This document shows, piece after piece, positions 20,482 through 60,680 of a DNA stretch of 64,000 nt. The DNA is from Punica granatum. Its lineage: Eukaryota; Streptophyta; Magnoliopsida; Myrtales; Lythraceae. Numbering within the stretch: position 1 is the first letter of the stretch; each line of letters begins with the position of its first letter. The translations under genes were made by a program, and so were the position numbers. The notes beneath the pieces are model-generated. The model ran no database searches. It had not been told where the DNA came from and saw only the letters and a list, made by a program, of their open reading frames with translations. The stretch is from contig NC_045129.1 in the NCBI RefSeq assembly GCF_007655135.1, positions 26,261,391-26,325,390 of the forward strand, read 5' to 3'.

Positions 20482-22206
20482 TGCTAGTTTTACGGGGCCT
20501 ACGGAAGCGTAAAAGAATAGAAATTCAAATTTTCTACTTGTAAAACTAGATCTCAAGACCTATTAGTAGAATGGGAATAGATAAAGTGTACCTGGAATCT
20601 TTTAAACCGTCGACCGAAAGTCTCACGCGTGATGCATCTACCAGTATCCACACCGACTTTCTCGACGGGATTTCGAGATCGGCGGTGCTAGCGGCCAACG
20701 CTCGAAGGAAACACGGTGCGACCCTAAAAAATATTAGACTAATGGACCAAACTAAATTGGATTCGTAATCCAATTCTTTATACACTTACACGCATAGACA
20801 TATCATATATGTTTATCTATGCATGCATATATATTAAAAACTTAACATTTGAGCTCCCATATATATATATGCATATGGGGGGCCTTATCCTGTTGAATGG
20901 CCGGTGTAGGAACTTCAATTAAGCTTCCCAAATTGTCAAATTTTCAGCCAATTTCATGCATGCAATGTGGCCATCAAATGGCCTTGCATGTGGCCATCAA
21001 ATTGCCTTAGGTGGCCATGCATGGGAAGGCCACATGGTCACCATGTGGTCGGTGAAGTGGCACCAATTTCGAGCCCCGTGTGTCTTTATTTCGTGTATAA
21101 ATTGGGTCCAATTAATATAATTAATCGGGTCCAATTAATCGGTAAATTTAATCTTATTAAAATTCCGAGTAACTAATCACATCATAACTCGTCTAATCTC
21201 TATTAGACAGGTTTAGTGTTTCAAAACCATCCTGTCGACTTGATCGTAGTGTGTGACCCTGTAGGTTCCCGATTACGTTGACAGTAATATCGAAATCTCT
21301 ATTTCAATATTACAAACAATGGGCGGCATTTAGCAATGCATCACTGCTACTCAAGTAATCGAAAAGTCAATTTCTCGACGAACCTTGTGACCAATGTTAC
21401 CGTGCAGTATAATCCCTTTGTCCTCTATATCTCTATTGAGCCCAAGGCATGGTCGTTGTCATCCTTGTATGTCTCAATCTCTCTTTCTTGGTTTACCAAG
21501 TAAGTTTATCAGAACAAATGAGCTCGATATCCCTATATCGACTCATTTAGGTATGCATACACTTATAGACTCTGCCCACCAAGCGGTCGTGAGATATCAC
21601 TCTCATTACGTAGGAGGGACAAATCCTATCTTTGTCACTCACATTCCTCTCCATGCTCTGTGGTATACCCAATAACTGTCTTTATAACTAGCATGTTACG
21701 GTGGCATTTGATAGTATTAAAGTATACAACATTACATGTAGGAAACTATTGTGACCTCAAGTTAAAGGACCACTGCACCATAGTTACTATGAGATCTGCT
21801 AATGACAGTCACGTAACGACCCATGTAGCAGTCTCATGGTGGGTCAGTCCAGTAGACATTACTCCTAATGTATACCTGCGGTGTGACTCGATGTCTCCAC
21901 ATCCATGACCTGTTAGACTTGGTCATCAATCTACACCCACACTAGTCTAACCGCATTATAGTTGTCCTAATTAACGATAATACTTTGACTAGGGACATTT
22001 AGGAATAGTGTTCAGTCATTATAGGATCTCACAATCAAGTCACACTTGATGCCTGTTGAACCTACTATTCCAAGGACATTATTGTGTTAAATTAATATTC
22101 AGCGCAACCTACACAATAACATAAATGCCTCGTATTATAATGAAATATATGTCATATTACAGAATTGATGACAGATTGCCTCTAGGGCATACACCAATTC
22201 CCAACA
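20482..22206 (-). repeat. Copia 5' LTR, 1725 bp
   Basis: Uninterrupted LTR, paired with 9042-10618 plus 15665-15801. It is preceded by the primer site and bounded on the right by the target duplication AAATG. Confidence 0.94.
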
Positions 22207-22211
22207 AAATG

Positions 22212-23065
22212 AAAGTATATTAGGCTCGGTGCAGAGGAAGGCAGGTTACAGGCGAGGATAAGAGGAAAAAGAAGAAGTAGATGGGAGACGGAGCATGCGT
22301 GTGTCAGTTGCCACAGGAGAGACCAGAGGAAGGCGAAGGAGAAAGGAGTAATAGGAGATTTCGGCTGGCCACTTGCAGGAGAAGGGAAAAGAAAAGAGGT
22401 TGCAGGTTTGTTCGATGCATCACAAGCCGCAAAGGAGAAACAGAAAAGAAGAAAAAAAGAAAGAAAAGGGGTCGGTTTATGTGGCAGGGTTGCTGAGGAA
22501 AGAAAGAGAGGGCAAGAGAGTTGTAGGTTTTGGCTCAGGGAAGTAGACTGCGCGAGGAAGAAAGAGAATAAGGAAGGAAAAAAGAAAAGGAAAAGAAAAG
22601 AAAAAGGAAATAACAAAAAAGGTTGGCGGGAAGAAACAACAAAAGAAAGTCAAACGACTGGTTTGACTTCTTTTTTTGTTTTTTGAAATTTTGTTTTAAA
22701 ATTGGAATTGACACTCCTAAGGACTAAAGTTCTCGTCTTTTCAATTGGAAGTCAGAAAAACGGTCTAGGAGCACCATCGTGCTCAGAAAAATTCATGGAT
22801 CAATGTTGTGCAATAAAATATTTTTCGACCTCAAATTTTCGTCTCCGATTTTGAAAATTGACGTTGATGTACCTAAAATTCAAAGACGTCCCTTAGGGTA
22901 TTTTTTTCTTTGAAAATTATAAAATTGGCATTAAAATTGGAAAATCTCTTATTTTCAAAAGTCATGAATGCTCGAGCAATCAACTAAAAATACTTCTCTC
23001 GCATGGAAGACATGAATGACGATTTTGGCATTTTGGAGTCGGTGGACCAAAACGGGGTGCTGACA
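22212..23065 (-). repeat. Right half of LTR C U3, purine-rich then AT-rich
   Basis: Continues LTR C beyond the copia insertion. The plus strand is strongly purine-biased to about 22660, then AT-rich. It ends at ...GGGGTGCTGACA (23065), which is the reverse complement of the conserved Ogre LTR start TGTCAGCACCCC. Confidence 0.8.
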
Positions 23066-23149
23066 GCTTGCCCCTCTTTGGTTGTGTGCTCGAGTAGAGG
23101 ATGCAGCCAAAAAATTTGTGAGGCACCCCGATTTGGGTCCAGCGACCAT
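23066..23149 (-). other. Ogre polypurine tract and 3' end of the internal region
   Basis: The minus strand ends AACCAAAGAGGGGCAAGC directly against the LTR start, a good polypurine tract. Only 84 bp of this internal region remain before another Ogre LTR begins at 23150. Confidence 0.7.
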
Positions 23150-23230
23150 TGTACGGACTCGAATTTACTCTTGTTGGGGCCCGCATGTGCGCGCCTATGC
23201 GCATGGCTTGGGAGTGTCCACCTTCCTGAG

Positions 23231-23792
23231 TGATGCAGCAGAAGACCTGGCAAGTCGGTACCTGGAGAAAAATAGGTTCTAACGACCCTATTTCGAAGGA
23301 AACAGTCTCAGGAGCAAAACTCACGGCCTTTGGCCGTGAAAAGACGAGATTTAGGCCGATTTCCATTGTTTAGGGTCTCAAACGGGCAATTTATGTTAAT
23401 TAGGGCGTTTTTTGCTATTTTAGGAAATAATTTATCTTTAAGAATATTTCGATATTTTAGGAGATAGTTTATCTTTAAGGATATTTTCTTAGTTTATCTT
23501 TAAGAATATTTCGATATTTTAGGAGATAGTTTATTTTTAAGGATATTTTATTTCTTTCGATTTATTCTCGTTTTCTCTATTTAAACGTTATAAGCCCTAG
23601 GGCAAAAAGGAGTCGTCTTTTCAGATTATCAATAAAATTCAGAGCTTTCGTGCTTTGTCCAATCTCGGATCGATTCGAGTTTGATGCCTATTTCCTAGTA
23701 TTTGTAGAATCAACAGGTATAGAAGGTCGTAGTTCCGGTATTCGTGCGCGAATCAACAGGTCTGTGACGGTTACTCGCGTTGTACGCTGTCA
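23231..23792 (+). repeat. 5' LTR of the small gypsy element
   Basis: 562 bp. It contains a TATTTAAAC promoter-like motif near 23578 and AATAAAATT polyadenylation-like sequence near 23632. A 61-bp internal tandem duplication is absent from the other LTR. Confidence 0.93.
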
Positions 23793-23794
23793 GT

Positions 23795-23804
23795 TGGTAT
23801 CAGA
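23795..23804 (+). promoter_or_regulatory. Primer binding site of the small gypsy element
   Basis: TGGTATCAGA, three bases after the 5' LTR; initiator tRNA-Met type. Confidence 0.9.
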
Positions 23805-23829
23805 CCCTACGATTGATCTTGGATCAGCG

Positions 23830-24111
23830 ATGCCGCCCAGGAGGAGGGATCATGTGGAAGATGTTCATGACCGTGACAATCTGCGACATCTGGAGCAGAG
23901 GCTAGAGCAGAGGATGGATCGTATGGTGGAGCAGCTAACACAGCAGATGGCTGCACTTATGGAGAATCAGAATCGGAGAAACCCTAATCCGAATTTTGAC
24001 CCTGATCGAGAGGAAATCGAGTATGATTCCAATTCTGAAGGGAACACGACTTTGTTTTCCGAAGAGGATCAGTCTGATGACGCATTTTTCGTGGCGGGAG
24101 GCGATGGATAG
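23830..24111 (+). pseudogene. gag: Gypsy gag N-terminal fragment
   Basis: The ATG at 23830 starts MPPRRRDHVEDVHDRD, followed by a coiled, charged segment (LEQRLEQRMDRMVEQLTQQM), typical of plant gypsy gag N-termini. The frame is open for 93 codons to a TAG at 24109-24111. No capsid core or zinc knuckle follows. In the same frame, STA1/PRP6-like sequence begins just after this stop. The upstream open frame into the LTR (from 23650) is not likely to be translated as such. Confidence 0.85.
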
Positions 24112-24345
24112 CCCGATTTCGACGAGGATGATGAGGGAGATGACAAGGGTTATGACGAGAACTGGAAATTCGATGAATTTGAGGGGAATGATGTGGGTCT
24201 TTTTGCTTCTGCGGAGTATGATGAGGACGACAAAGAGGCTGATGCGGTCTGGGAGGCCATCGACAAGAGAATAGACTCGTGAAGAAAAGATAGGAGGGAG
24301 GCGAGGCTGGAGCAGGAAATTGATAAGTACCATGCCCCGAATCAA
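24112..24345 (+). pseudogene. STA1: Captured fragment of host splicing factor STA1 (PRP6/PRPF6 family)
   Basis: The plus-strand frame contains GYDEN, FDEFEGNDVGLFASAEYDED, DKEADAVWEAIDKR, then (after an in-frame TGA at 24283-24285) RKDRREARLEQEIDKY. This matches, residue for residue over most of its length, the acidic N-terminal PRP1_N region of plant STABILIZED1, the U5 snRNP protein orthologous to yeast Prp6 and human PRPF6. About 75 codons are present. Similarity starts within a few codons after 24111 and ends near 24345. The orientation and frame are the same as the gag fragment. The single stop sits where the family has the first of two arginines. This is a piece of a host gene carried inside a retrotransposon, not a functional gene. 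Confidence 0.92.
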
Positions 24346-24556
24346 CAGATGAGGACGAGGATGTCAGATGTCTCTATCGAACCAATCACTGCGGCAGAGT
24401 ATTTTGAGTCGGGATTTTTTCCAATCATCCGTTATGAAGCATGGGTTGACATCGGTTTCCGGTCAAGTATGGAATATGTGTATGTTTGTATGGATAATTT
24501 TATCTCTAGACTCCTATGGCGAATTCGAGGGCGAATTCTCTCCACCCATGGGAGAA
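24346..24556 (+). other. 3' internal region of the small gypsy element
   Basis: Non-conserved sequence after the STA1 fragment. It ends ATGGGAGAA just before the 3' LTR and is probably the residual 3' end of the parent gypsy element. Confidence 0.6.
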
Positions 24557-25057
24557 TGATGCGGCAGAAGACTTGGCAAGTCGGTACCTGGAAAAAAATA
24601 GGTTCTGATGACCCTATTTCGAAGGAAATAGCCTCAGGAGCAAAACTCACGGCTTTGGCCGTGAAAAGATGAGATTTAGGCCAAATTCCATTGTTTAGAG
24701 GCTCAAACGGGCAATTTATGTTAATTAGGGCGTTTTTTGCTATTTTAGGAAATAATTTATCTTTAAGAATATTTCGATATTTTAGGAGATAGTTTATTTT
24801 TGAGGATATTTTGTTTCTTTCGATTTATTCTCGTTTTCTCTATTTAAACGTTGAATGCCCTAGGGCAAAAAGGAGTCGTCTTTTCAGATTATCAATAAAA
24901 TTCAGAGCTTTCGTGCTTTGTCCAATCTCGGATCGATTCGAGTTGGATGCCTATTTCCTGGTATTCGTAGAATCAACAGGTATAGAAGATCGTAGCTCCG
25001 GTATTCGTGCGCGAATCAACGGGTCTATGACGGTTACTCGCGTTGTACGCTGCGTCA
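24557..25057 (+). repeat. 3' LTR of the small gypsy element
   Basis: 501 bp, paired with 23231-23792. It differs by scattered substitutions and lacks the 61-bp duplication. Confidence 0.93.
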
Positions 25058-25932
25058 CTGAGGATGCGGGACAGACATGTGTGAGAAGGAGTCGCCACTT
25101 ACTGTTACGACCTGAAGGTCAAGGGCCGTTAAGTTATCCTGGTCTAGGGGTACGGGGTACACCTAAAATGCTAAGGCATTGGTCATTGCGAAACCGAAAA
25201 TTCCTAGTTCGGGGGTTCTATTACGTGCGGGCCTATATCCCACACGCCCTTTCGGTACTCTAGCTTACTAGACTTGCCATTTTATTTATTTACTGCGTGA
25301 TTTTAAGGTTGCACTTGACTTGCCCGTTTTGACATCGTAAATTCGGTGAAATGATCGCTTCGGGCCAAGGACCTGAAAGAAGCGTAGGCTTGCGCGTTGA
25401 GGAATCGGTTCGCTATCCTTGCGTTACAGTTCGTCGGACCGTGGTGGTCGACTCCCTGCGTGAATCGAGACCACGAGTACTCTGGCTTACTCGTCTTTAG
25501 GTAACCATAGACTTACTTGACCAGTTCAACACTTGGACCTCTTGCTCGCCGACCGGGGATCCTTACAAATGAATAAATAAATGTACAAATAAAATCCTCG
25601 CAATGTACTCTCGAATAATTACATAATACAATGGATCCCGATCGGTTTGCATTGGGCCAATATTCTGCTCCGGCTCACCGTGAGGTTTTGAATAACCGAT
25701 AGGTAAATTAAGGCAACACGGACTTAAAGAGCCGGGGGTCGAGTCCGACTGGATCGACGGACAGCAAAAGAGTCGATTGACTCTCAAGACGGCCGTGGAT
25801 GTGGTCGAGCTCCTGGGCGATTGTCAAACTACGATTCACGCACCCAATCCGAGTCATCTTTCGCTTAGACAGTACTCGAAGTAAAGCGATGACTCGAGGC
25901 TAGACCTCATTCCGCACTCAGGTTGCACGTAG

Positions 25933-26740
25933 TGCAAAGCTTAATTGAAAAGTGTAGAGCTTAATTGTAAAGTACGGAGCTTAATTGAAAGTGCAGAGTT
26001 TAGTTGAAAAGTGCGGAGCTTAATTAGAAAAGTGCGGTGCAAAAGACATGGGCGCTTGCCCGACGGTTTTGCATGATGCACGGGCACTTGCTCGGCAGAT
26101 TTGCAAGAAACACGGGTGCTTGCTCTGTGAACTTGCGGGATGCACAGGCGCGTGCCCGGCGGATTTGCAAGAAGCACAGGCGCTTGCCCGGCGAACTTGC
26201 GTAGCTTAATGGAAAGTGTAGAGCTTAATGAAAGGTACATAGCTTAATTGAAATTGCGGAGCTTAATTGAAAGTGCAGAACTTAATTGAAAGTACAGAGC
26301 TTAATTTAAACTACAGAGCTTAATTGAAAGTGCAAAGCTTAATTAAAAGTGTAGAGCTTAATTTGAAAGTGCAGAGCTTAATTGAAAAGTGTAAAGCTTA
26401 ATTGAAAAGTGCATAGCTTAATTGAAAGTGCAGAGCTTAATTAAAAGTGCAGAGCTTAATTTGAAAGTGCGAAGCTTAATTGAAAAGTGCGGAGCTTAAT
26501 TGAAAGTGCAGAGCTTAATTGGAAAAGTGCGGTGCAAAAGACATGGGCGCTTGCCCGACGGTTTTACAAGATGCACGGGCGCTTACCAGGCGGATTTGCA
26601 AGAAACACGAGCGCTTGCCCAGTGAACTTGCTGGATGCACGGGCGCTTGCCCAATGGATTTGCAAGAAGCACGGGTGCTTGCCCGGCGAACTTGCGTAGC
26701 TTAAAGGAAAGTGTAGAGCTTAATGAAATGTGTAGATCTT
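25933..26740. repeat. Composite minisatellite with a 495-bp higher-order period
   Basis: Units of about 20 bp built on AGAGCTTAATTGAAAGTGC alternate with blocks of about 41-bp units built on TTGCAAGAAGCACGGGCG and GCTTGCCCGGCG. The composite AAAAGACATGGGCGCTTGCC block appears at 26041 and again at 26536, a 495-bp step, so short arrays were amplified together as a larger unit. The frames across it are repeat artefacts. The array abuts the truncated LTR at 25932. Confidence 0.88.
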
Positions 26741-26829
26741 AATTGAAATTGTGGGGATAAAATGTGTGCATGAAGTAAAGGGCTTGCATAAAACATTGAA
26801 ATAAGTGAAAATGGATGTGAAACCCTAAA

Positions 26830-27029
26830 AGCAGTAAAGTGATAGGTGCGAAACTCAAGTGGGTGTGAAATTTGAATGCAGTAAAATGGGTGTGAAACTC
26901 GAACGAAGTGGGGTGGGTGTGAAACCAATATGCAGTGGTGTGGGTGTGAAACCCTACTGTAGTGGAATGGGTGTGAAACCCGAATGCAGTGGAGCAGGTG
27001 TGAGACCCTGACTGCAGTGGTGTGGGTGT
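26830..27029. repeat. 27-bp minisatellite, left part
   Basis: Degenerate units of about 27 bp with GGGTGTGAAACCCGAATGCA as core. They continue at 31962-32180 on the other side of the solo LTR. Because 27 is a multiple of three, minus-strand frames read through as a repeating nine-residue pattern rich in histidine and threonine or serine. Confidence 0.88.
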
Positions 27030-30000
27030 TGTACGGACCCGAATGTGGACTCTCGTCGGGGCCCGTATTGCGCGCTTTTGGATCGCGCGGCTTGGGAGTG
27101 TCCACCTTCCCGTGGGGACGCGTGACGGACACGCGTGAGAGAAGGAGTCGCCACTTATCATTTTACGACCCGTAGGTCGAGGGCGGATAAGTTACCCGGG
27201 TCTAGGGGTATGGAACACCTAGTTTGTTGTTAAGGCATTAGTCTGTGCGGAACCGGAAAATCCGAGTTCGGGGGTTCATGTTACGTGCGGGCCTATATCC
27301 CGCACGCCCTTTCGGTACTCTGGTTTGCTAGGCTTGCATGTTTTATTATTTACCGCGTGGATTAAGTTGCGCTCGGCTCGCCCGTTTTGACACCGTAAAC
27401 TCGATGAATTAAACGATGTCGGTTGAAAAGCCGGGCGAGAAGTAAATCTATATGTCGGGGAATTGGTTCACAATCTTGCAATACAGTTCATCAAACCATG
27501 GAGGTTGAATCCCTACGTGAACCAGAACCGCGAGATCTTGGATTTACTTGTATCTGGGCAAGCGTTAGACCGATTCGATTAATTCGACTCTCGGACCGTT
27601 CGCTCACCGACTGGAATTCTTACAGAATTAATGTACAAAATAAAATCCTTACAATGCTCTCGAAAACAATAAATATAAATTACAAATGGCCAAATTCCAG
27701 TCAACTCGCGTTCGGTTATTATTCCGCTCTAACTCACCGTGAGTTTAGGGAAAAGACCGAAGAACTGAAATTCAATGGACGCTCTCACTGAATAGGGCGT
27801 TGGACCCTATGAGTGTTGATTAGGGCGTTGGACCATGTGCTCGATGATTAGGGCGTTGAACCCTAATATTATTCGGCCTAGGGATCAGGCTCGACCCTCA
27901 TGGCAAACAGGTGCGGAAAGATAACACGCAACATGTTAATAACAGACAAAGTGTTTGTTATTGTCGTGTTTACGTGAATTAATAGATTATTAACGCAGGG
28001 GTGTTTTTGCAAGCAAATGCCATATGCTAAGCAATCAAACACGTGCCAATGTTTTAGCATTCGGCTTTGGTTTGAAACTTGAAAAGGAGAGTCAAATCTC
28101 ATGTGTGTGGATTGTTTTTACAGTTGTTCTGTATTGTGACACTGAATTTTCACTGAATTAGCCAAACTCGTGTTTTGACTCTAGATTTGGAATCTAGAAT
28201 TCCTCCTAACCATTATCTAGTGTTTGGTTAGGTCGAGTGAAAGGTTAATCAGCATTTTGCATGTTTTCTGACAGAGATAACCGTTCTAGTTACCCGAGTC
28301 TATGTTAGGATGACAAAAACTCATCAGTTAGATAAGAAAAGGCTATGCAGATGAACCTATCCCTGAACAGGTAGCCCGTTCTTATCCCGTACTGTAGTGT
28401 TTCTGTCATGCTAACCCTAAGGGTGTCGCTAAATTGTGAAAAGACGATTTTGCCCTTTATTTGAAAATTGTTTTCAGAAAAGGGGAAACATCGCAGTGCG
28501 GGCCACCTCGGCCTGTAGCCGGTGTCGACCAATTCCCTGGATCGTCTAGGGTTGTGCAAGAATCCCGAAAAAGCCAAAGAACTGGTCGATTTGCTCGGAA
28601 GTGATCTAGAAAGATCTTCTGTATCCTGACCTGAGTTACCTGGAATCAGGTAAAAACTCAAGTTGAGACACAGAAGCCCTTTTTAGATGTCCATGCTACA
28701 TCGGACTGCGCGTTTTGGGTTTTGAAATTGATAAGTTTGAAAAGGGCACCAACGTCATTTGACAACTCATCGACGCGAGTTATCAGTTAATGGTCGATTC
28801 GTGTAAACTTTATCATTGTGAAGTGGGTTTAATCACGTGAGCGTCCCGATTAACCCGTTCGTGAAATTAATGCTTAAGGGTTGTGCCGAATGCATTAATT
28901 GTGAAAACGATTCGCGACTCGACGACCAAGACGATTCCATAAAGATCGATGATAATTTGGTCCAATAACCGAAACTACCCTCGTAACCGAATGGACCCGA
29001 ATGAGTCATTGATACCCGAATCCATGCATGCTTTGTTTTGAAAAGACATTTTCATGCGATATTGCGACGATAATGTAAATTGCAAATTACACGAAAGCCG
29101 AGAACGAACTCAAAACGGGAAGAGGAAGCCTCATGCAACCCGTACGAGTCTAAGGGACTCTCGGTTACTTCTCCTTGGAGATAGCCGAGAGGTCCCATGG
29201 CCCGAATGGGGTTCCATGAGGTTTTCCCGTCTCGTTTTGAATCATTTCTCGCATGCTTAAATGACAAACATGATAAATGACACGATTAAACGAAAGTCGG
29301 TATCGCCATGATTTGAATAACGCATTCGAACATGCAAACATGCACAAACAAGTTATTTAAGGAATCGATAAAACAATACTGACTTCATGCATGTAAGAAA
29401 ACACGAGAAAACTCGGGAATCGAACTTGGATCGGGCTAAGAAGGCCGTTCTTAACCCGAGGAAAGCAAGCCAAGTCTCGGTTACCTCTTCTTGAGGCAAA
29501 CCCGAGAGCTCTTTTGCTTATTTCGGGTCGGGAAGGTCTTCCGAGGGTCGATCCAAACGTTTCCTGACATGCTAACATGTTAATCGAGGATAAACATGCA
29601 TGATATAATGTAAAAGTGCATAAAAATGAAGTCTTGCAAGTGAACATGCTTTGTGCACCATATTACTCCATAGCCATGCAAATAATGTAAAAAGCCCTAA
29701 CTCCTCTAAGTCAAGAGTGATTTACCTAGTCTCGGGATACGAGGAAAGAGTCGGGGAAGTGTTCGAGAGTCGGGTGACTCGGTAGAACGCTTGGAAGGAT
29801 GCTCGGGTGCAAAGGATGCACGTTCGGGTGTGCACGGAAGTTGGGCGCGTGGGTAGGCACACGGGGGCATGCGCGGGCTCGCGGGCAAGCGCGCGGGTAG
29901 GCACGCGGTGGGCGCGCGAGGCGTGCGCGGGGCGTGCGCGGGGCGCGGGCGGGCGTGCGCGGGCTGGCGCTGGACTGTCACTATTCACCCGAGAGTGACG

Positions 30001-31961
30001 ATTTTGCCCGAAATGCACTATTTGACCTGAAACAATAATTTAAAGACTTCAAATGGAAAAACCAACTTTACCAATGAACTCCATGGGTCCAAAATGAGTG
30101 GGATATGAAGTATGAGAATTTTTGAACTTAAGTCGAGATGATGAACATCAGCTTCCGACTTAAGAACTCAAGGCTCTTTTTGGATTTTTTCGTTTTTCTC
30201 TTTTCTTTCTAAGTCCTGAAACTTGCTGGTTCTTGAATGTTCTTGGCTATGGAGTTTGAGGTGATTTCTTGAAGGAAAAAGGTTGGAGAGAGTGTGTAAA
30301 AGGAGAAGTGATTATCTTAATCACTTTTTGGCCATTTATAGGCAAAGCTAATAATACAATTAGCAAAAGCAAGTGCTCTTAACCCCCATGCTTAGCAAAT
30401 TTCGGTTTGATTAAGAAAATATCAAGCCTCATCTTCTTCCATTGCATTAATGAAGAAGAGATAAGACATTGATGTGCATTGATGAGCATTGATGAGAAGT
30501 TGAGTGTTGTCTTCAACCTCTCCAAGATATTTTGGCTAAGAGAGAGCAAGTTGGCTTCTTGCATTGAATAAGAAGAAGAAGCTTCTAGAGCAAAGGGTGA
30601 CTCATCTTGGGTAGCCCGTGGGTCCCACGACCGAAGAGGAGAAACCGGGAAAAAGCTCGGGTCTCGATTGATCGCGCATTCGAGGCTCGTGGTTCGAACC
30701 GAATGTTGAATTATCGATATACGCGAGGAAACGGATTTAATGAGTCCGAGATTGACATTTTCCGTGAGGAATTGCCAAATGTCTGTACGAGGTTCGGAAA
30801 CCGGTTTTACTCCTTTTATGCATTCAGAGCGAGGTTACCCACTTCTGACAGCATATCTTGTACCTGCATCCCACGTCGGTCATTTTGACATAAATTGTCA
30901 AATTACGTGGGCACTTGTCCCTTAAGCCGGTAAATGCAAATATGGAGCCGGTGATGTCCTAGGAGGCCGAAACTGGATTTCTCAGATTGTTTTCTGAGTT
31001 TCTTGGGCGATCCGGAGATCACTGTGATCTCTGTTTGCCGAGATTGGGCCTCTAAAGATATGAAAAGTGCATCTGAGACCCTTAAAGCACTGCTCGAGGG
31101 ATCTAGATGAGTTGTGTGATTCATTCCGACGATTCCACATTGAGCGTTGAGATAAGTGACACTAGAATTGCCAACCATCCGGCGTCAAGTTTCCCCAAAG
31201 AGGACCTCCGGATATGGATTTCCACAGAAAATGGTCTTTTGTGCTCCTCGGAGGTTACTCGGGAAACCGAGAAGGGTTTTGCTGTTTGTTTTGCCCAATT
31301 GCGAATGTCCGCTGGAGTTTTCAGGGTAATATAGTGTAAACTTCGTTTGTCGTAATTCCATCAGATCGGTCTCCGGTTATGCTCTTCCGAAGAGGGGTAT
31401 GCCCGTTTTGTCGCTTGGAAGTCATTCGGGGTGCCTGTATGACTTCCAAAAGACAATCTGAAGCACTGCTCATGCTCTGTAAGATTGTGGGACATGGCCG
31501 CATCTGATATTTGGAATTAACTTTTTTCCGAGAAACCGGCATTTTTGGACTTCCACTGAAAAGTTGTCTGTATACAGAAAGTTGTTCTGTATAGAGCAGA
31601 TGATTTGGAAATGCGTTTGAAGACACTTTTCATTTGTTTGGCATCGATGTGGATTTTTGAAGTCCAATGTTGGCTATCTTCCGACGGTCGAGCGAACTAT
31701 CGGAAAATAGGACTGTCCACGTGGTACACTGGAAATGCCGGTTTTGGACATTGTTGAGCTCTCTAGTCACTCTGTTACCCTTTGGTGACCCCTGAAGTCC
31801 TTTTGTCATATGCATGTGTCATTTGCTCGATTTCGCCGACTTGAGGATGAATAGTGATTTTTCGCTCTGTTAAGTCGTTTTTCTGTATTCTGCTCAAGTT
31901 ACGGCTTGGATCATTGCTGATAATGTAATTTGAGTTGGTGAGCCAAAATGGGGTGCTGACA
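27030..31961 (-). mobile_element. Solo Ogre-like LTR (subfamily A), 4932 bp
   Basis: The plus strand runs TGTACGGACC...GGTGCTGACA. The 5-bp target duplication GGTGT is exact, at 27025-27029 and 31962-31966, in the middle of the 27-bp minisatellite. No internal retrotransposon sequence is attached. The TATA box lies at 30335-30341 (minus), with the AAGTGATTA dyad at 30306-30326. The GC-rich hypervariable stretch is at about 29780-29990. Confidence 0.95.
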
Positions 31962-40300: not shown

Positions 40301-43300
40301 CGGAAAATCCGTGTTCGGGGGTTCATGTTACGTGCGGGCCTATATCCTGCACGCCCTTTCGGTACTCTGGTTTGCTAGGCTTGCATGTTTTATGATTTAC
40401 TGCATGAATTAAGTTGCACTCGGCTCGCATGTTTTGACACCGGAGATTCGGGTAACCAAACGATGTCGGTTGAGAAAGCCGAGAGAGAAGTAAACTCGTA
40501 TGTCGGCCTAGGGATCAAGCTCGACCCGCATGGCAAACAGGTGCGGAAAGATAACAAGCAGCAGGTAAATAACAGACAATGTGTTTGTATTCACCGAATG
40601 TACGTGGATTAGCAAGTTTATTAACCCGGGGTTTTTTGGCATGCAAATCCTACCCTAGACAAACAAACGTGTGCCAATGTTTTAGCATTCGACTTTGGTT
40701 TGAGAACCTGACATATCGGGTGTCCGTAGTCAAGTTTCGTATATGTGGATTGTTTTTACAGTGATTTGGTGTTGTGACACTGAATTACCACTGAATTGAT
40801 CCAAACTTGTATTTTGACTCTAGATTTGGAACCTAGAGTTCCACCTAACCATTTTCTAGCATTTGGTTAAGTCGAGTGAAATGATTAGTCTGGTAATTGT
40901 ATTTTCGATACAGAATACCCGACTAGCACCCTAAACAATGCTAAGATGACGCCAAATCACAAAATGATGTTCTTGCCCTTGATTTATAAATTTGTTTTCA
41001 AAAAAAGGGAAACAACACAATATGGATTTGAAAGTATGAGGGTCTTGAAAAAGGGCATTAACATCGTTTTGTAATTCGTCGACACGAGTTACAAATTAAT
41101 GTCCAATTCGTGCAAAGTCGTTTAAATTGAATGAATTAACCGTGTGAACGTCCCGATTAACTCGTTCGTGGAATTAATGCTTAAGGGTTGTGTCGAATGC
41201 ATTAATTGTGAAAACGATTCGTGACTCGACGACTAAGAAGATTCCATAAGGATCGAGGATAATTTGGTTCAATGACCGAAACTACCCTTGTAACCGAATG
41301 GACCCGAATGAGTCATCGATACCCAAATCCATGCATGCTTTGTTTTGAAAAGACATTTTCATGCGATATTGCGACGATAATGTAAATTGCAAATTACACG
41401 AAAGCCGAGAACGGACTCAAAACGGGAAGAGGAAGCCTCATGCAACCCATACGAGTCTAAGAGGCTCTCGGTCACTTCTCCTTGGAGATAACCGAGAGGT
41501 CCCATGGCCCGAATGGGCTTCCACGAGGTTTCCCCGTCTTTTTTTGAATCATTTCTCGAGTGCTCAAACGACAAACACGATAAATGACACGATTAACTAA
41601 AGTCGGTATTGTCATGATTTGAATAACGCATTCGAACATGCAAACATGCACAAATAAGTTATTTAAGGAATCGATAAAACAATACCGATTTCATGCATGT
41701 AAGAAAACACGAGAAAACTCGGGAACCGAACTTAGATCGGGCTAAGAAGGCCGTTCTTAACCCGAGGAAAGCAAGCCAAGTCTCGGTTACCTCTTCTTGA
41801 GGCAAACCCGAGAGCTCTTTTGCTTATTTCGGGTTGAGAAGGTCTTTCGAGGGTCGATCCAAACGTTTCCCGACATGCTAACATGTTATATGATGACGAG
41901 CAAGCAAAATATAACATGAAAGTGTATGAAAATTAAGCCTTGCAAGTTAAACATGCATAAAACGCCATATTACTCCATAGCCATGCAAATAATGTAAAAA
42001 GCCCTAACTCCTCTTAGTCAAGAGTGATTTACCAAGCCTCGGGATACGAGGAAAGAATCGGGGAAGTGTTCGAGAGTCGGGTGACTCGGTAGAACGCTTG
42101 GAAGAGTGCTCGGGTGCAAGGGCATGCACGTTCGGGGAGCTAGGCGCTCGGGGCGTACGGCTGGAGTGCACGGTAAGCGCGCGGGAGGCGTCAGGCATGC
42201 GGCTGGATGCGCGGGCGCGCGGGAGCGTGCGGCTACTGGTGCACTGTTCACCCGAGAGAACGTCCTTCACCCGAAATCACCTAAATGACCTGAAATGTTA
42301 AGCAAATGACTTCAAATCAAAAATCTAAGTTCATAAATGAACTCCTTGGGTCCAAAACATGTGGTCCATGGAGTTTGAGAATATTTGAACTTAAGTTGGG
42401 ATGATGAACATCGGCTTCCGATTTAAGAAACTCAAAGCTTTCTTCGGGTTTTCTTCGGTTTTTCTCTCTTGGTTTTTGAAGTGTTGAAGCTTGCTGGTTT
42501 TGGCTATGGAGTTGAGAGTTTTTCTTGAGGGAGAAAGCTTGGAGAGAGTGTGCAAGAGGAGAAGTGATTAACTTAATCACTTTGGGGCTATTTATAGGCA
42601 AAGCTAATGGGCAATTAAACAAAAGCAAGCACACTTAACCCTCCCATTAGCAAATTTCGGTTTGCCTAATAAGGATGAGGATGAATGTGAGCCAAGTATC
42701 CTTCATGTGGAAGAGCCAAAACCATTAATGAGCATTGATGAAGGCTTGAGTGTTGTCTTCAAACTTCTTGGATATTTTCATGCAAAAGTGCAAGTTGGCT
42801 TCTTGCATTGAAGAAGAAGAAGAAGCTTCTAGAGCAAGGGGTGACTCATCTTGGGTAGCCCGTGGGTCCCACGACCGAAGAGGAGAAACTAGGAAAAAGC
42901 TCGAGTTTCAATTGATCGCGCATTCGAAACTCGTGGTTCAAATTGAATGTTGAATTATCGATATACGCGAGGAAACATATTTAATGAGTCCGAGATTGAC
43001 ATTTTCCATGAGAAATTGCCAAATGTTTGTATGAGGCTCGGAAGCCGGTTTTGCTCCTTTTATGTATTCAGAGCGAGGTTACCCACTTCTGACAGCATAT
43101 CTTGTATCTGCATCTCACGTCGGTCATTTTGACATAAATTGTCAAATTACGTGGGCATTTGTCCCTTAAGCCGGTAAATGCAAATATGGAGCCGGAGATG
43201 TCTTAGGAGGCCGAAACTGGATTTCTCAGATTGCTTTTTGAGTTTCTTGGGCGATTCGGAGATCACTGTGATCGTTGTTTGTCGAGATTGGGCCTCTAAG

Positions 43301-46300
43301 GATAGGAAAAGTGCATCTGAGACCCTTAAAGCACTGCTCGGGGGGTCTAGATGAGTTGTGTGATTCATTCCGACGACTCCACATCGAGCCTTGAGAAGGC
43401 TAGCATTGTGTAACGTAAGCATCCGGCGTCAAGTTTCCCCAAAGAGGACCTCCGGATATGGATTTCCATTGAAAATGGTCTTTTGTGCTTCTCGGAGGTT
43501 ACTCGGGAAACCGAGAAGGGTTTTGCTGTCTGTTTTGCCCAATTGCGAATGTCCGCTGGAGTTTTCAGGGCAATGTAGTATGAACTTCGTTTGCCGTAAT
43601 TCCATCAGACTAGTCTCCGGTTATGCTCTTCCGAAGAGGGGTATGCCCGTTTTGTCATTCGGAAGTCATTTAGAGTATCTGTATGGCTTCCAAAAGACAA
43701 TCTGAAGCACTGCTCGTGCTCTGTATGATTGTGGGGCATGGCCGCATCTGATATTTGGAATTAACTTTTCTCCGAGAAACCGGCATTTTTGGACTTCCAC
43801 TGAAAAGTTATCTGTATACAGAAAGTTGTTCTGTATAGAGCAGATGATTTGCAAAATGCCTTTGGAGATACTTTTCATCTATTTGGCATTGGAGTAGATT
43901 TTTGAAATCCAATATTGGCTATCTTCCGACGGTCGAGCCAACTATCGGAAAATAGGCCTGTTCGTGTGAACTCTGGAAATGCCGGTTTCGGACATTGTTG
44001 AGCTCTCTAATCACTCTGTTGCTTCTTGATGACCCCTAGAGTCCTTCTGTCATATGCATGTGTCATTTGCCTGATTTTGCCAACTTGAGGATGAATAGTG
44101 ATTTCTTACTCTGCCGAGCCTTTTCTGTATTCTGCTCAAGTCGTGGCTTGGATCATTGCTAATAATGTAATTTGAATGAGTGAGCCAAAATGGGGTGCTG
44201 ACAAAGCCTGAGCTCCTCTAAATCGAGGATATTATACCTAGCCTCGGGATACGAGAAAAGAGTCGAGGAAGGGTTGGAGAGTTGGGTGACTCGACTGGGC
44301 ACGATGAGGGGTGCTTAGGTGCACAAGCAAGGGCTTTCAGGGCGCTGGAGCGTATGGTAGAGCGAGCAGGGGCATGCGCGAGCGTGTCCAAGAAGCGGAC
44401 ATGCGCGCGTAGGGAATCGAGTGCGCGAGGACGGTGCTGGCGAATGTGCCGCTAGGCGTTAGGCGTGCGCGCGAGGACAGGACGTAGCACTAGCGGAATG
44501 TGGACGTGCATGCGTGTGAGAGCGAGCGTGTGGCAGAGCACTTGGAATGCTGCTGAACGTCTGGAGCGCACTGCTGAGCGCCTGGGGGTGCGGCTGAGCG
44601 TCCGAACATGCAATCGAGATGCCACTACTCACGGGATCAACCTGAAATGATAAGATAGGAGCCTTAAAATAAAAATCTAGGTTTGGAAATGAACTCCATG
44701 GGTCCAACACATGGAATATGGATTTTGGTTAAGTTCGGATTTAAGTCGGAATAGTGATCACTGATTTCCGACTTAAGTTCTAAGGATTCGTTTGCTTGGT
44801 TTCGGTTTTCCTTGGGCTAATGTGGTTGCTGCTAGTTGCTAGGGAGTTGAGAGCATTTCCTAGAGGGAGAAAACTAGAGAGAGTGTGCAAGAGCAAAAGT
44901 GATTAGCTTAATGAACTTTATGCAATATATAGGCAAAGCTAATGAACAATTAGTGAAAGTAAAGTGCAATTAGGGGCATGCTTAGTAAAAGTCGGTTAGC
45001 TTAATGAAGATATGGATGAATCTCCACCAAGTATCCTTCATGAAGAAGAAGCCAAATGCATTAATGGTTTAGAGTTGATGTTGGACTGTAGAAGTGAAAC
45101 ACTTAGATATTTTTGTGCAAGTGGACAAAGAGGAAGGGAGGTGGCACCTTTCTTTGTCAAGAGCAAGGGGAAGAAGATGCCGTGGGACTCGCTTAGGTTG
45201 GAGTTGAGTCGGGAAAGCTCAGATGTTGATCAATTGCATGTTCGAGTTTCGTGATTTGAAAGAACAACGTATTGACAATGTGCGTGAGGAAACAATCCCG
45301 ATGAGCCTAAGATTGCTCATTTGGCATGAAAAATGCTCAGATGGTCATGAAGCTCGGAAGCCGGTTTTGCTCATTTTAAGTTATCAGAGCGAAGTTAACC
45401 GTTTCTGATGGCATATCTTGGATCTGTGTGCTGCGTTGGTCACTTTGATATGCATTGTAAGTATAGTTGACCCTTAAGCTGGTATTGCAAATGTGGAGCC
45501 GGAGACGTCCTAGGAGGCCGAAACTGGATTTCTCAAATTGCTTTCTGAGTTTCCTGGGCGATCCGGAGATCTCTGTGATCTCTGTTTGTTGAAAACGGAC
45601 CTCTAAGGACTAGAAAAATACACCCGAGACCTTTAATACACTACTCGGGAGGTTTAGATGAGTTGTGTAGTTCAGTCCGATGATTCCACATTGAGCCTTG
45701 GGATGGCTAGCACTGTGTAGGGCAGTTGTCCAACATCAAGGTTCCGCAAAAAGGACATCCGGATATGGATTTCCACTGAAAATGGCCTTTTCTGCTCCTC
45801 GAAGGTCACTCGGAAAACTAAAAGGGGTTATGCTGTCTGATTTGCCCAATTGCGTTTGTTCGCTGTAGTTTTCAGAGCAATGCAGGGTCAACTTCGTTTG
45901 CCGATATTCCGTCAGACCAGTCTCCGGTTATGCATTTTCGAAGAAAGGTATGCTTGTTCTGTCGCTCGAAAGTCATTCGATGTGTCTACGTGGCTTCCAG
46001 GAACATATCTGTTGTGATGCTCATGCTCTGTATGTTTGTGGGACATGGCTATGTCTGACGTTTGGCATTAACTTTTCTCTGATGAGCGGCACTTTTGGAC
46101 TTCCACCGAAAAGTTGTCTATATTTAGAAAGTTGCTCTGTATAGAGCAGATGATCTACAATATGTGTTTGATGACACTTTTCATCTGTTTGGCACCGATG
46201 TGGATTTTTGGAATCCAATATTGGATATTTTCTGATGGTTGAGCGAACCATCGGAAAATAGCACCGTCAACTTTGTACTCTATAAAATGCCGGTTAGGGG

Positions 46301-51800: not shown

Positions 51801-53843
51801 CGACCTCTTTCCCCGCTTGGAAGTCGGTTCTTGGAATTGTTTTGCGATTGTACTTGTCGTTTAATTATCGATCATGTATCAACTACTCATTAGATATATT
51901 AGTTTCGGGTAAGCACCTATTAAACCCGTAGTTGTGATGTAAATTCATAAATGTCGAAGAATCTCACGAACGGGATAAACGGGACGCATCATTCGGCTAA
52001 TTAAGTCACTTGGATTAAATAATTGGGCAAAACGATCCTCAATTTGTAAACGCATCGATGATTTACGGAACGGTGAAAATGCCCTTTTTTCATTAAAAAG
52101 CCCACAATTTCAAAATACCGAGACACGTAACACGAAGACGTCTAACGAGTACTCGCGTGCTATGACTCGAGTCCGGGCCCGATTTGAGGCGGCCCGAGTC
52201 AAGATGCGCGAGTCCTTCTTAGACTTCTTCGTGTAACGCGATCTCCGATTTAAACACGAATGTTGCAATTTTATCATCCAAGGGCATAATCGTCATTCCA
52301 TGATTCACCGATACCCTAGGCTTTAGGGAGTTGGAAACACTTAGAACTATGGACGAGAAAGGACAACCTGTTTCGGTGAGAGTTTCATTCGCGCAGCCCA
52401 TTTCGTTCATTTTCAGCGTTTCTTTCTTCTTATTGTAGATTCGGTGGGGAGCATTTTATTTCAGTTACAAAACACGAACAACCGGATTAATCATACATTC
52501 GGCCTAATCAAACACTAGACAATGGATAGGTGGAATGATAGATTCCAATCTAGAGACAAAACACGAGTTTGGCTAATTCAGTGAAACCGCAGTGTCACCT
52601 CACTGAATAAGAGTCTTAAAACAAACACACGCATGTAATTGGCTTAGAGCCCCATTCTAATCCACCGTCTATGTTTGCCTAGGTTAGATACATTGTTTGC
52701 TAACCAACCCCGGTTAATAACTGATTAAATCACGTACATTCGGCTTAATACATAACTTGTCTGTATTCACCGATACTTATCAGTTGTTGTCTGTATTTCA
52801 TCAGTTTTATCAGTTTTCTTCTGTTTTATTCTTGCTTTTGCTGATTCGTCGCGATTCGGGCCCGAGCCCATAGGTTACATGTTACACGGGGTCCAATGCC
52901 CCAAACTACCGAACACGAGGTCCAACGCCTCCTAATTCACTGAGCGCGTGCAACCCGAGTGCGGAATGGGATCTAGCCTCGGTTCACCGTCACACTCCGA
53001 ATGCGACCTATGAGGAAGGCAAATTTGGATTGGGCGCGTGAAACGGGTTTAGATATTACCCGGGAACTCCATCGGTCCATCGGATACAGTGAGAACCAAC
53101 CGGTTCTCCCGTAAACCGTTGGATCGATCGGACCCGACCCCCGGCTCTTTGAGCCCGCGTTGCCTTAATTTGTTTATCGGTCGTTCAAAATACACGGTGA
53201 GTCGGAGTGGATTATTGGCCCAATGCAAACCGATTGGGATCCATTCACTCATTCATTTGTAAGGATCCCCGATCGGCAAGCGAGAGGTCCGAGTGTCGAA
53301 CCGGTCAAGTCGGTCCATTGTTACCAAGAGATGAGCAAGCTCGAACACTCGTGGGCTCGGTGCGCGCAGGGAATCGACCATCACGGTTCGATAAACTGTA
53401 ACGCTAAGATAGTGAACCGATTCCTCGACGCACAAGCCTACTCATCTTTCGGATTATTGGCCCAACTTGATCAATTCATCGATTTTACGGTGTCAAAATG
53501 GGCGAGTCAAGTGCAACCCTAAATCACGCGGTAAATAAACAAAAACGGCAAGCCTAGCAAACTAGAGTACCGAAAGGGCGTGCGGGATATAGGCCCGCAT
53601 GTAATAGAACCCCCGAATTCGGAATTTTCGGTTCCACATGACCATTGCCTTAGCATTTAGGTGTACCCCGTACCCCTAGACCCGGGCGACTCAACGGCCC
53701 TCGACCTATAGGTCATAAACAGTAAGTGGCGACTCCTTCTCACACGTGTCCGTCGCGCGTCCCCGGGAAGGTGGACACTCCCGAGCCGCGTTGCATAGGC
53801 GCGCGCATGCGTGCCCCGACAAGATAAAATTCGGGTGCGCATA
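48879..53843 (+). repeat. Ogre B 5' LTR, about 4965 bp
   Basis: Runs TGTCAGCACCCC...GTGCGCATA. It is GC-richer and clearly different from the A subfamily except at both ends and in blocks of U5. The TATA box is TATAAAG at 50192-50198. A splice-donor-like CTAG|GTAACG lies at 50961/50962. Confidence 0.9.
50192..50198 (+). promoter_or_regulatory. TATA box of Ogre B LTR
   Basis: TATAAAG in the context GCCTATAAAGCCCC, at the same relative place as TATAAAT in the A-type LTR. Confidence 0.75.
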
Positions 53844-58106: not shown

Positions 58107-58512
58107 CTTTTGGCGGGAAATCAGATTCAGCCGATATCCCCGGGTCCGAACTTCGACTCGTCTGTTCAGGATCAATCCAAGCACTGCGAATATCATCACG
58201 GCGCGCCGGGGCACACTCTCGACAATTGTTGGAGGTTGCGGGACGAAATTCAGAGGAGGATCGACAGCAACAGACTCACTTTCAACGCCGTCAGGCCTCC
58301 AAATGTGCAGGCCAACCCCCTCCCGGACCATAGGCCGAGTTCGGGGCCATCCATCAACATGATCTCTATATGCGTCTCGGAGAGGGACGAAGAAGCGCAG
58401 GAGAATCCCCTTCCCTTCGTGATCAATTACACTCCCGAAGAATTCACAGTCGGGTTCACGGGACACGAGGCCTCGTCGGCCCCATTCGTTGTCGACACCC
58501 CTGCCTGGGAAC
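58107..58512 (+). pseudogene. Ogre B gag zinc knuckle and start of pol, truncated
   Basis: Same frame as gag, after stops at 58050 and 58104. It contains a zinc knuckle variant CEYHHGAPGHTLDNC (C-x2-H-x5-H-x4-C) at about 58184-58228, as in Tat-clade elements. The pre-protease region PFVINYTPEEFTVGFTGHEA follows. The frame is then cut after PFVVDTPAWE by the LTR of the next Ogre (58513). The protease active site lies downstream of the insertion and is not present here. Confidence 0.88.
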
Positions 58513-60111
58513 TGTCAGCACCCCATTTTGGCTCACCTTTCCAAACGATGATATCAGCAATGATCCAAGCCACAACCTGAGCAGAATACAGAAAAACGAC
58601 TTAACAGAGCAGAAAATCACTATTCATCCTCAAGTCGGCAAAATCGGGCAAATGACACATGCATATGACAGAAGGACTCCAGGGGTCACCAAAGGGTAAT
58701 AGAGTGACTAGAGAGCTCAGCAATATCCAAAACCGGCATTTTCAGTATATCACACGGACAGTTCTATTTTCCGATAGTTCGCTCGATCATCGGAAGACAG
58801 CCAATATTGGACCCCAAAAATCCACTCCAATGCCAAACAGATGAAAAGTGTCCCCAAAGGCATTTTGCAAATCATCTGCTCTATACAGAACAACTTTCTG
58901 TATACAGACAACTTTTCAGTGGAAGTCCAAAAATGCCGGTTTCTCGAAGAAAAGTTAATTCCAAATATCAGATGCAGCCATGCCCCTCAATCATACAGAG
59001 CACGAGCAATGCTTAATATTGTCTTTTAGAAGCCATACAGACACTCTGAATGACTTCCGAATGACAAAACGGGCATACCCTTCTTCGGAAGAGCGTAACC
59101 GGAGACTGGTCTGATGGAATTACGGCAAACGAAGTTCACACTACATTGCCCTGACAACTCCAGCGGACATTCGCAATTGGGCAAAACAGACAGCAAAACC
59201 CTTCACGGTTTCCCGAGTAACCTCCGAGGGGCACAAAAGGCCATTTTCAGTGAAAATCCATATCCGGAGGTCCTCTTTGGGGAAACTTGACGCCGGATGC
59301 TTACCTTACACAATGCTAGCCTTCTCAAGGCTCAATGTGGGATTGTCGGAATGAATCACACAACTCATCTAGACCCCTCGAGCAGTGCTTTAAGGGTCTC
59401 AGATGCACTTTTCATATCCTTAGAGGCCCAATCTCAGCAAACAGAGTTCGCAGTAATCTCCGGATCGCCCAAGAAACTCAGAAAGCAATCTGAGAAATCG
59501 AGTTTCGGCCTCCTAGGACATCTCCGGCTCCATATTTGTATTTACCGGCTTAAGGGACAAGGGCCCATGTAATTTGACAATTTATGTCAAAATGACCGAC
59601 GTGGGATGCAGATACAAGATATGCTGTCAGAAGTGGGTAACCTCGCTCTGAATGCATAAAAGGAGCAAAACCGGCTTCCAAGGCTCATACAGACATTTGG
59701 CAATTTCTCACGGAAAATGCCAATCTCGGACTCATTAAATCCATTACCTCGCGTATATCGATAATTCGACGTTCAATTCAAACCACGAACTTCGAATGCG
59801 CGATCAATCGAGACCTGAGCTTTTTCCCGGTTTCTCCTCTTCGGTCGTGGGACCCACGGGCTATTCAAGATGAGTCACCCTTTACTCTAGAAGCTTCTTC
59901 TTCTTCTTCAATGCAAGAAGCCAACTTGCACTCTTGCTTGAAAATATCCAAGAGTTTGAAGACAACACTCAAGCCTCCATCAATGCTCATCAATGCTCAT
60001 CAATGTCTTATCTCTTCTTCATTAATGCAATGGAAGAGGATGAGGCTTGATATTTTCTAAGCATGGGGGTTAAGAGCACTTGCTTTTGCTAATTGTGTCA
60101 TTAGCTTTGCC

Positions 60112-60146
60112 TATAAATGGCCCAAAAGTGATTAAGATAATCACTT
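60112..60146 (+). promoter_or_regulatory. Ogre A LTR core promoter with dyad at the predicted start site
   Basis: TATAAAT at 60112-60118 is followed by AAGTGATTA-AGA-TAATCACTT at 60126-60146, a dyad with 9-bp perfect arms. Transcription would start 25-35 bp after the TATA box, at or just past the dyad. The same pair is present at 42597-42562, 30341-30306 and (with doubled TATA) around 14026-14090 on the minus strand. Confidence 0.7.
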
Positions 60147-60474
60147 CTCCTCTTACACACTCTCTCCAACCTTTCTCTTTCAAGAAATCCTCTCAAACTC
60201 CATAGCCAAGAACACTCAAGAACCAGAAAACCTCAGCACTTAGAAGGAAGAGAAAAGAAAACCGAAAAGATCAAAAGAGAGCCTTGAGTTCTTAAGTCGG
60301 AAGCTGATGTTCATCATCCCGACTTAAGCTCAAAATTTCTCAAACTTCATATCCCACTCATTTTGGACCCATGGAGTTCATTGGTGAAATTGGTTTTTCC
60401 ATTTGAAGTCTTTAAATTATTGTTTCAGGTCAAATAGTGCATTTCGGGTGAAATCGCTACTCTCGGGTGAATAG

Positions 60475-60680
60475 TGACCCGCCAGCGCCAGCCGCGCGCA
60501 CGCCCGCGCACGCCCGCGCGCACGCCCGCCCGCCAGCGCGCACACCCGCGCACGCCCGCGCGCGCGCCCCGCGCGCACGCCCTGCACGCCCGCGCGCCTG
60601 CCCGCACCCCGCGCACGCCGCGCGCCTCCCGTGCATTCCAGCCGTATTCCCAGTGCACCTAGCTCCCCGAACGTGCATCC
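60475..60680. repeat. GC-rich alternating array in Ogre A LTR
   Basis: Dense CGCGCACGCCCG-type repeats with long purine-pyrimidine alternation, within the transcribed part of the LTR. The open frames here are compositional artefacts. Confidence 0.85.

Follow-up and report, generated by a model that had tools for sequence, protein, structure and literature searches.

The window, that is, the whole 64-kb stretch of DNA analysed here, lies on contig C3 of the 320-Mb pomegranate (Punica granatum) genome and contains one copy of a small LTR element at 23231-25057, all of whose features are read on the forward strand. The element is bounded by the 5-bp target site duplication CTGAG, present exactly at 23226-23230 and 25058-25062 as an earlier note on this DNA had reported. 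Its 5' LTR (23231-23792, 562 bp, TG...CA, with a 63-bp internal duplication) and its 3' LTR (24557-25057, 501 bp) have 25 mismatches over 498 aligned bases. Between them come the primer binding site TGGTATCAGA (23795-23804), presumably of the initiator tRNA-Met type and found also in the autonomous relative L072, the N-terminus of gag (23830-24021, carrier type A), a short acidic stretch (24022-24054), the gag linker (24055-24120), the cargo described below and, ahead of the 3' LTR, a 3' carrier sequence with the terminal purine tract GGGAGAA (24502-24556). In the autonomous relative L073 the same linker lies between the zinc knuckle and the protease; in the window element the cargo slot follows it directly. 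The internal region measures only 764 bp and a Pfam search of the gag frame found no polymerase, which, together with the paired TG...CA LTRs and the 5-bp duplication, bears out the description of the element as a non-autonomous LTR retrotransposon. TRIMs are very short elements without gag coding, and the window element, with its gag start and its 501-562 bp LTRs, is not one of them; the element is also, we assume, smaller than a LARD. It is nested in another repeat, an element-free copy of which, on the minus strand at 53242-53839, can be aligned (84%) over the junction of the two flanks, the join omitting two bases of the target duplication. Elsewhere in the window, a repeat of about 3.2 kb occurs at least three times (28740-31961, 41049-44203 and 58512-61785, one of them inverted), with shorter relatives near 13.7-15.7 kb, and minisatellite-like arrays lie at 25930-26530, 26859-27007 and 27789-27872, their units being about 19-20, 27 and 28 bp long.

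The cargo begins with a segment of the spliceosome gene STA1/PRP6. The earlier note had placed this homology at 24112-24345; it holds for 24121-24341, where 205 of 221 bases (93%) agree with the intact pomegranate STA1, an open single-exon gene of 1028 codons from its ATG at C2:41514684 onward. The protein search returned Pfam PRP1_N (E 1.8e-15) and human PRP6 (about 1e-12, PDB search), and with the host-gene match this rules out a chance resemblance. The segment does sit on the strand and in the frame of gag; the gag-STA1 fusion that had been envisaged cannot be made by the window copy, because two in-frame stops, TAG at 24109-24111 and TGA at 24280-24282, break the frame. The element's frame, used as query, brought up 120 proteins; 97 are from P. 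granatum, and the other 23 match STA1 alone, none of them matching the gag probes. The idea of a single-gene cargo did not survive, since the sequence behind STA1 belongs to a second gene that the first reading had overlooked. Past a short bridge, GAATCAACAG (24339-24348), the next 153 bp (24349-24501) are exon 2 of protein phosphatase 2C 22 (PP2C22), and the residues encoded after STA1 are those of the pomegranate protein (P0085).

The boundaries of this second piece are those of splicing. Host PP2C22 has four exons (C8:7430644-7433125); its exon 1 ends in CTTCTCTT followed by GTAAGT, and its exon 2 opens with ATGAGGACG after CTGACGCAG. The cargo opens with this same ATGAGGACG, i.e., with the first base of the exon, exactly at the splice acceptor. 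In the copy L020 it continues through exons 3 and 4 with both introns gone, precisely so save for the bases common to the exon ends, and exons 3 and 4 were matched in four of 40 typed copies (L036, L052, which is the L020 locus, L053 and L054), all of gag type B; protein matches at C4:29429151, C2:12127613 and C4:26777674 are likewise contiguous across PP2C22 exons. Because these long copies carry exons 3 and 4 without introns, the PP2C22 cargo is derived from spliced RNA, the source introns being precisely absent. Host STA1 has no intron in the captured stretch, and the RNA origin of the STA1 piece therefore follows solely from the element that it shares with PP2C22. The long form ends in GAACGT followed by AATTTTATCTCT, and the short form, to which the window copy belongs, joins exon 2 (GATAATTTT) to ATCTCT, the outcome that a deletion between TAATTTT repeats would give; the TAATTTT at 24495-24501 is, by comparison with L020, the presumed scar of the loss of exons 3 and 4.

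The element is a member of a family with the same cargo, as the earlier note had considered. Scoring of 126 of 139 candidates gave 109 genomic matches to the STA1 segment, namely the gene itself and 108 others, window included, some of which are two pieces of one copy or lie on unplaced contigs, and the copy number of the STA1 cargo is about a hundred. The fetched loci, drawn from the better-scoring ones and not at random, held 47 cargo places, nine in one array on C4 and 38 elsewhere, and 36 of these 38 are flanked by a pair of LTR-like repeats (one pair of only 99 bp). For 36 LTR pairs of at least 300 bp, taken from 40 places with one locus entering twice because of a duplicate contig, the median divergence is 0.099 (range, 0.026-0.167), corresponding to about 4 to 7 million years with the two substitution rates usually applied in LTR dating. 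Exact 5-bp duplications were found at 11 of 40 places (10 different loci) by a strict script, which missed the window's own CTGAG, having matched only part of its LTR.

The C4 array (C4:19964234-19975123) consists of nine STA1-PP2C22 units arranged head to tail with a period of 1326 bp and about 98-99.9% alike, and here an element has thus turned into a tandem repeat. Three gag-linker units about 1.2 kb apart at C2:35916142-35918873 are perhaps another small array. In public annotation, some open reading frames of the elements are named after host proteins, such as a phosphatase or an isomerase (P0011, P0015 and P0133); P0011, annotated as protein phosphatase 2C 22, combines parts from gag, STA1 and PP2C22 that belong to such an element, and P0133 is an STA1 piece joined to an RRM protein.

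The LTRs of two autonomous relatives are alike along the whole window LTR (76-88%), and the relative with a readable start shares the gag start and the primer site of the window element. The gag proteins of autonomous relatives, P0088 and P0122, have the same N-terminus followed by a gag core without STA1, and genomic matches to P0122 run through gag without cargo. The alternative named in the earlier note, that the STA1 stretch is an ordinary part of the parental gag, is thereby ruled out. As to the gypsy type named in the earlier note, which would call for an autonomous partner with reverse transcriptase (RT) ahead of integrase as in Ty3/gypsy, P0125 contains gag, a zinc knuckle and an RT match below the cut-off, and for P0117 RT and integrase zinc-binding domains are listed. 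Such gag-pol relatives with related LTRs probably moved the non-autonomous elements in trans. Two gag carriers bear the double cargo, type A in 17 and type B in 23 of the 40 typed copies. In the cargo tree the host sequence groups with the long B copies (support, 82/69), and five changes, whether gains or losses, are required for the A label, two of them forced by well supported branches; the cargo thus switched gag carrier more than once, with moderate support. In the order of events that we favor, the double cargo would have arisen as the long form on gag type B, been shortened by deletion between its two TAATTTT copies, then spread, and changed its gag carrier at least twice.

The slot behind the gag linker has received other host genes as well. 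A search with the gag-linker portion of P0102 found 32 proteins, all of them from Punica. Pfam recognized aconitase, an ABC transporter, glutaredoxin and GH1 in four of the first ten linker proteins, and a kinase with P450, transketolase, an RRM, two CHD pieces, an ABC transporter and SURF2 in seven of the second ten, whose remainder comprised one gag-pol and two without a Pfam match. P0124, in which SURF2 stands before the linker and not after it, and P0104, named subtilase by its source but without a Pfam match, were left out of the tested cargoes. Introns are absent from five cargoes, PP2C22, GH1, transketolase, kinase and aconitase, the loss in the latter four being read from a contiguous cargo against split best host matches: GH1 at C6:16756228-16757187 versus C4:28159989-28161197, the kinase at C1:49572109-49573605 versus C6:443101-444729, aconitase at C1:9797782-9798555 versus C6:4303706-4304473, and transketolase at C7:10873643-10874506 (75% like P0134, with one stop) versus C5:24506034-24507027 and C4:11588422-11589328. 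Glutaredoxin offered no usable contrast, its best host match being one exon and its element copy lying in three pieces. Upstream of the aconitase frame there is an LTR end about 90% like that of the window together with a primer site with one difference, and this one end of the aconitase copy is the LTR evidence around cargoes other than STA1-PP2C22. On the strand of the GH1 cargo and about 270 bp downstream of it lies a transketolase piece (C6:16755754-16755954), perhaps the sign of a second double-cargo element. P0039, P0042, P0044 and their relatives carry the same gag-linker with a different cargo (ITKSIKELRDLGECLPNLDSGNLD...), P0039 and P0042 being without a Pfam match.

Taken together, we consider it very probable that a Bs1-like non-autonomous LTR family of pomegranate has acquired spliced exons of host genes again and again, by template switching. 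Pieces of spliced host mRNA would be taken up during reverse transcription, and the polymerase would switch template at short shared sequences. The joints of the cargo are suggestive in this respect. The autonomous linker (L073) reads GACGAGGAGGAAGAAATT and STA1 reads GGTGAGGAGGAGGAGGAT; the copies join the two within a GAG-rich stretch in which GAGGAGGA is common to both, and this would be the switch point between linker and STA1, with GAA/CGAA serving likewise between STA1 and the LTR-derived bridge. The bridge itself, GAATCAACAG, occurs also in the LTR directly before a GT (GAATCAACAG|GT, 23707-23718), and a second donor-like site, CGAATCAACAG|GT, follows at 23749-23761, the donor function of both GT sites being putative; the element has three CAGGT sites only, all in its LTRs. 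Of 40 copies, 25 show the last bridge bases before the ATG, TCAACAG, without change, 13 with one deviating base and two with two; AATCAACAGGT is present in both autonomous LTR ends read (L071 and L072) and exact in only 18 of 36 fetched loci. To judge from these letters, the bridge looks like an LTR-to-exon splice joint with the LTR cut at its GT donor, and PP2C22 probably entered, though we hold this step with distinctly less assurance than the capture of spliced exons as such, as a chimeric mRNA in which the LTR donor had been joined to exon 2. No LTR was found in or near the source genes at the fetched PP2C22 (3.8 kb) and STA1 (6 kb) loci, and the proposed chimeric transcript is therefore one without a surviving source insertion at these loci. 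In retroviral oncogene transduction, chimeric LTR-to-exon transcripts are packaged and recombined by template switching; the present case differs in being a plant retrotransposon, with a chimeric RNA suggested by one junction only. If the LTR-splice-donor route is true, transcripts should exist that join an LTR ending in AATCAACAG to the first bases of host exons, and the family makes this route of capture directly testable.

The bridge might also have arisen by template switching alone, through a switch into a partly processed PP2C22 RNA at the acceptor, with CAG kept and TCAA added as filler. The intron before exon 2 indeed ends in CAG, and filler bases are common at template switch points; however, the intron bases further up (CTGACG) were not kept, and the filler TCAA is the sequence that the LTR has at its CAGGT sites, an agreement which, given CAG, would arise by chance about once in 256. 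We therefore regard this route as a serious but less likely alternative to the chimeric mRNA. Capture of gene fragments at the DNA level, in the style of Helitrons or Pack-MULEs, is by contrast so improbable that it hardly competes: it is described as common in plants in the relevant part of PMC13317346, but introns are absent from five cargoes, the STA1 copies have LTRs, and no intron sequence was seen among the cargo copies read. The absence of introns rules out genomic DNA as the source. Pack-MULEs would have terminal inverted repeats, Helitrons their own ends, and both would keep introns; here the introns are lost, and no inverted repeats of at least 20 bp were found in 21000-28000 at the settings used.

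As to the effect on the host, the cargo is most likely a passive passenger sequence. Selection might have kept the STA1 piece, e.g., if it were functional within a shortened gag and so aided packaging; we think this unlikely, and selection on the STA1 cargo is not established. In its favor, a long open frame is kept in many copies with STA1 cargo, and in 41 STA1 copies the ratio of amino-acid changing to silent changes is 87:20 for those in single copies versus 21:15 for those in at least four (p 0.008), with no such drop in 42 PP2C22 pieces (50:14 and 29:10). However, the contrast is gone with transitions only (40:16 and 19:14, p 0.25), STA1 and PP2C22 do not differ clearly in the shared variant class (p 0.15), and 11 of the 41 STA1 copies have in-frame stops. 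The gag part (15 pieces; 78:18 in single copies, 21:10 in at least four) keeps its signal with transitions (p 0.006), for which descent from a working gag may account. Less likely still, the element might silence STA1 via small RNAs and could thereby weaken host control of transposons. STA1 is a pointed cargo because, in the part of PMC3794598 concerned, it acts in RNA-directed DNA methylation (RdDM), the pathway that such silencing would touch, and the 89-95% identity of the cargo to STA1 in 40 copies speaks for the idea.

Plant LTR gene capture has been described mainly from one or few copies. In the pomegranate family, dozens of copies can be dated, the source genes are intact, there is a candidate for the helper family, and long as well as short forms exist beside several cargoes behind one linker; capture, trimming and spread can therefore be ordered within one family, which is well suited to studying how exons of the host are collected by retrotransposons. 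It is tempting, and a little short of an even chance in our estimate, that this one family is an exon-collecting platform with a fixed post-linker slot, an LTR donor fusing to downstream exons, a microhomology tract, about a hundred copies and two gag carriers.

A search of the open-licence literature returned no paper on this family, in queries that rarely named pomegranate or STABILIZED1, and such absence is not proof. The closest relative in kind is maize Bs1, in which, according to the portions of PMC13317346 and PMC7264820 concerned, fragments of several host genes are joined in one element. The pomegranate element likewise has pieces from more than one host gene in sense orientation and in the gag frame (broken by the two stops in the window copy); unlike Bs1, it carries other genes, its family comprises about a hundred copies, both long and short, and two gag carriers, and sister copies have other genes behind the same linker. 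Host fragments inside LTR elements are likewise described from rice, sorghum and maize (672 and 1,343 genes, in the relevant section of PMC3726574). At least 189 LTR captures are given for maize in the part of PMC2774510 that bears on them, where, under the conditions of that survey, no single element combined fragments from more than one standard nuclear gene; the pomegranate element, in contrast, has two host genes in one unit. In the corresponding part of PMC7264820, open reading frames attributed to transduction are stated to have one or few copies. Against such single-gene and few-copy cases, a family of about a hundred copies that reuses one slot and bears a double cargo derived from spliced RNA is an unusual variant. 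The pepper NLR retroduplications are similar in that mostly non-autonomous LTR elements amplify host genes; they concern a single gene family and, according to the pertinent part of PMC5664825, about 72% lie in elements that have neither gag nor pol, whereas the pomegranate cargoes are unrelated genes behind a gag linker. Finally, the family resembles the pomegranate LARDs, which are recently expanded non-autonomous LTR derivatives, and the passages on them in PMC5999313 speak of no host gene cargo such as the one carried here.
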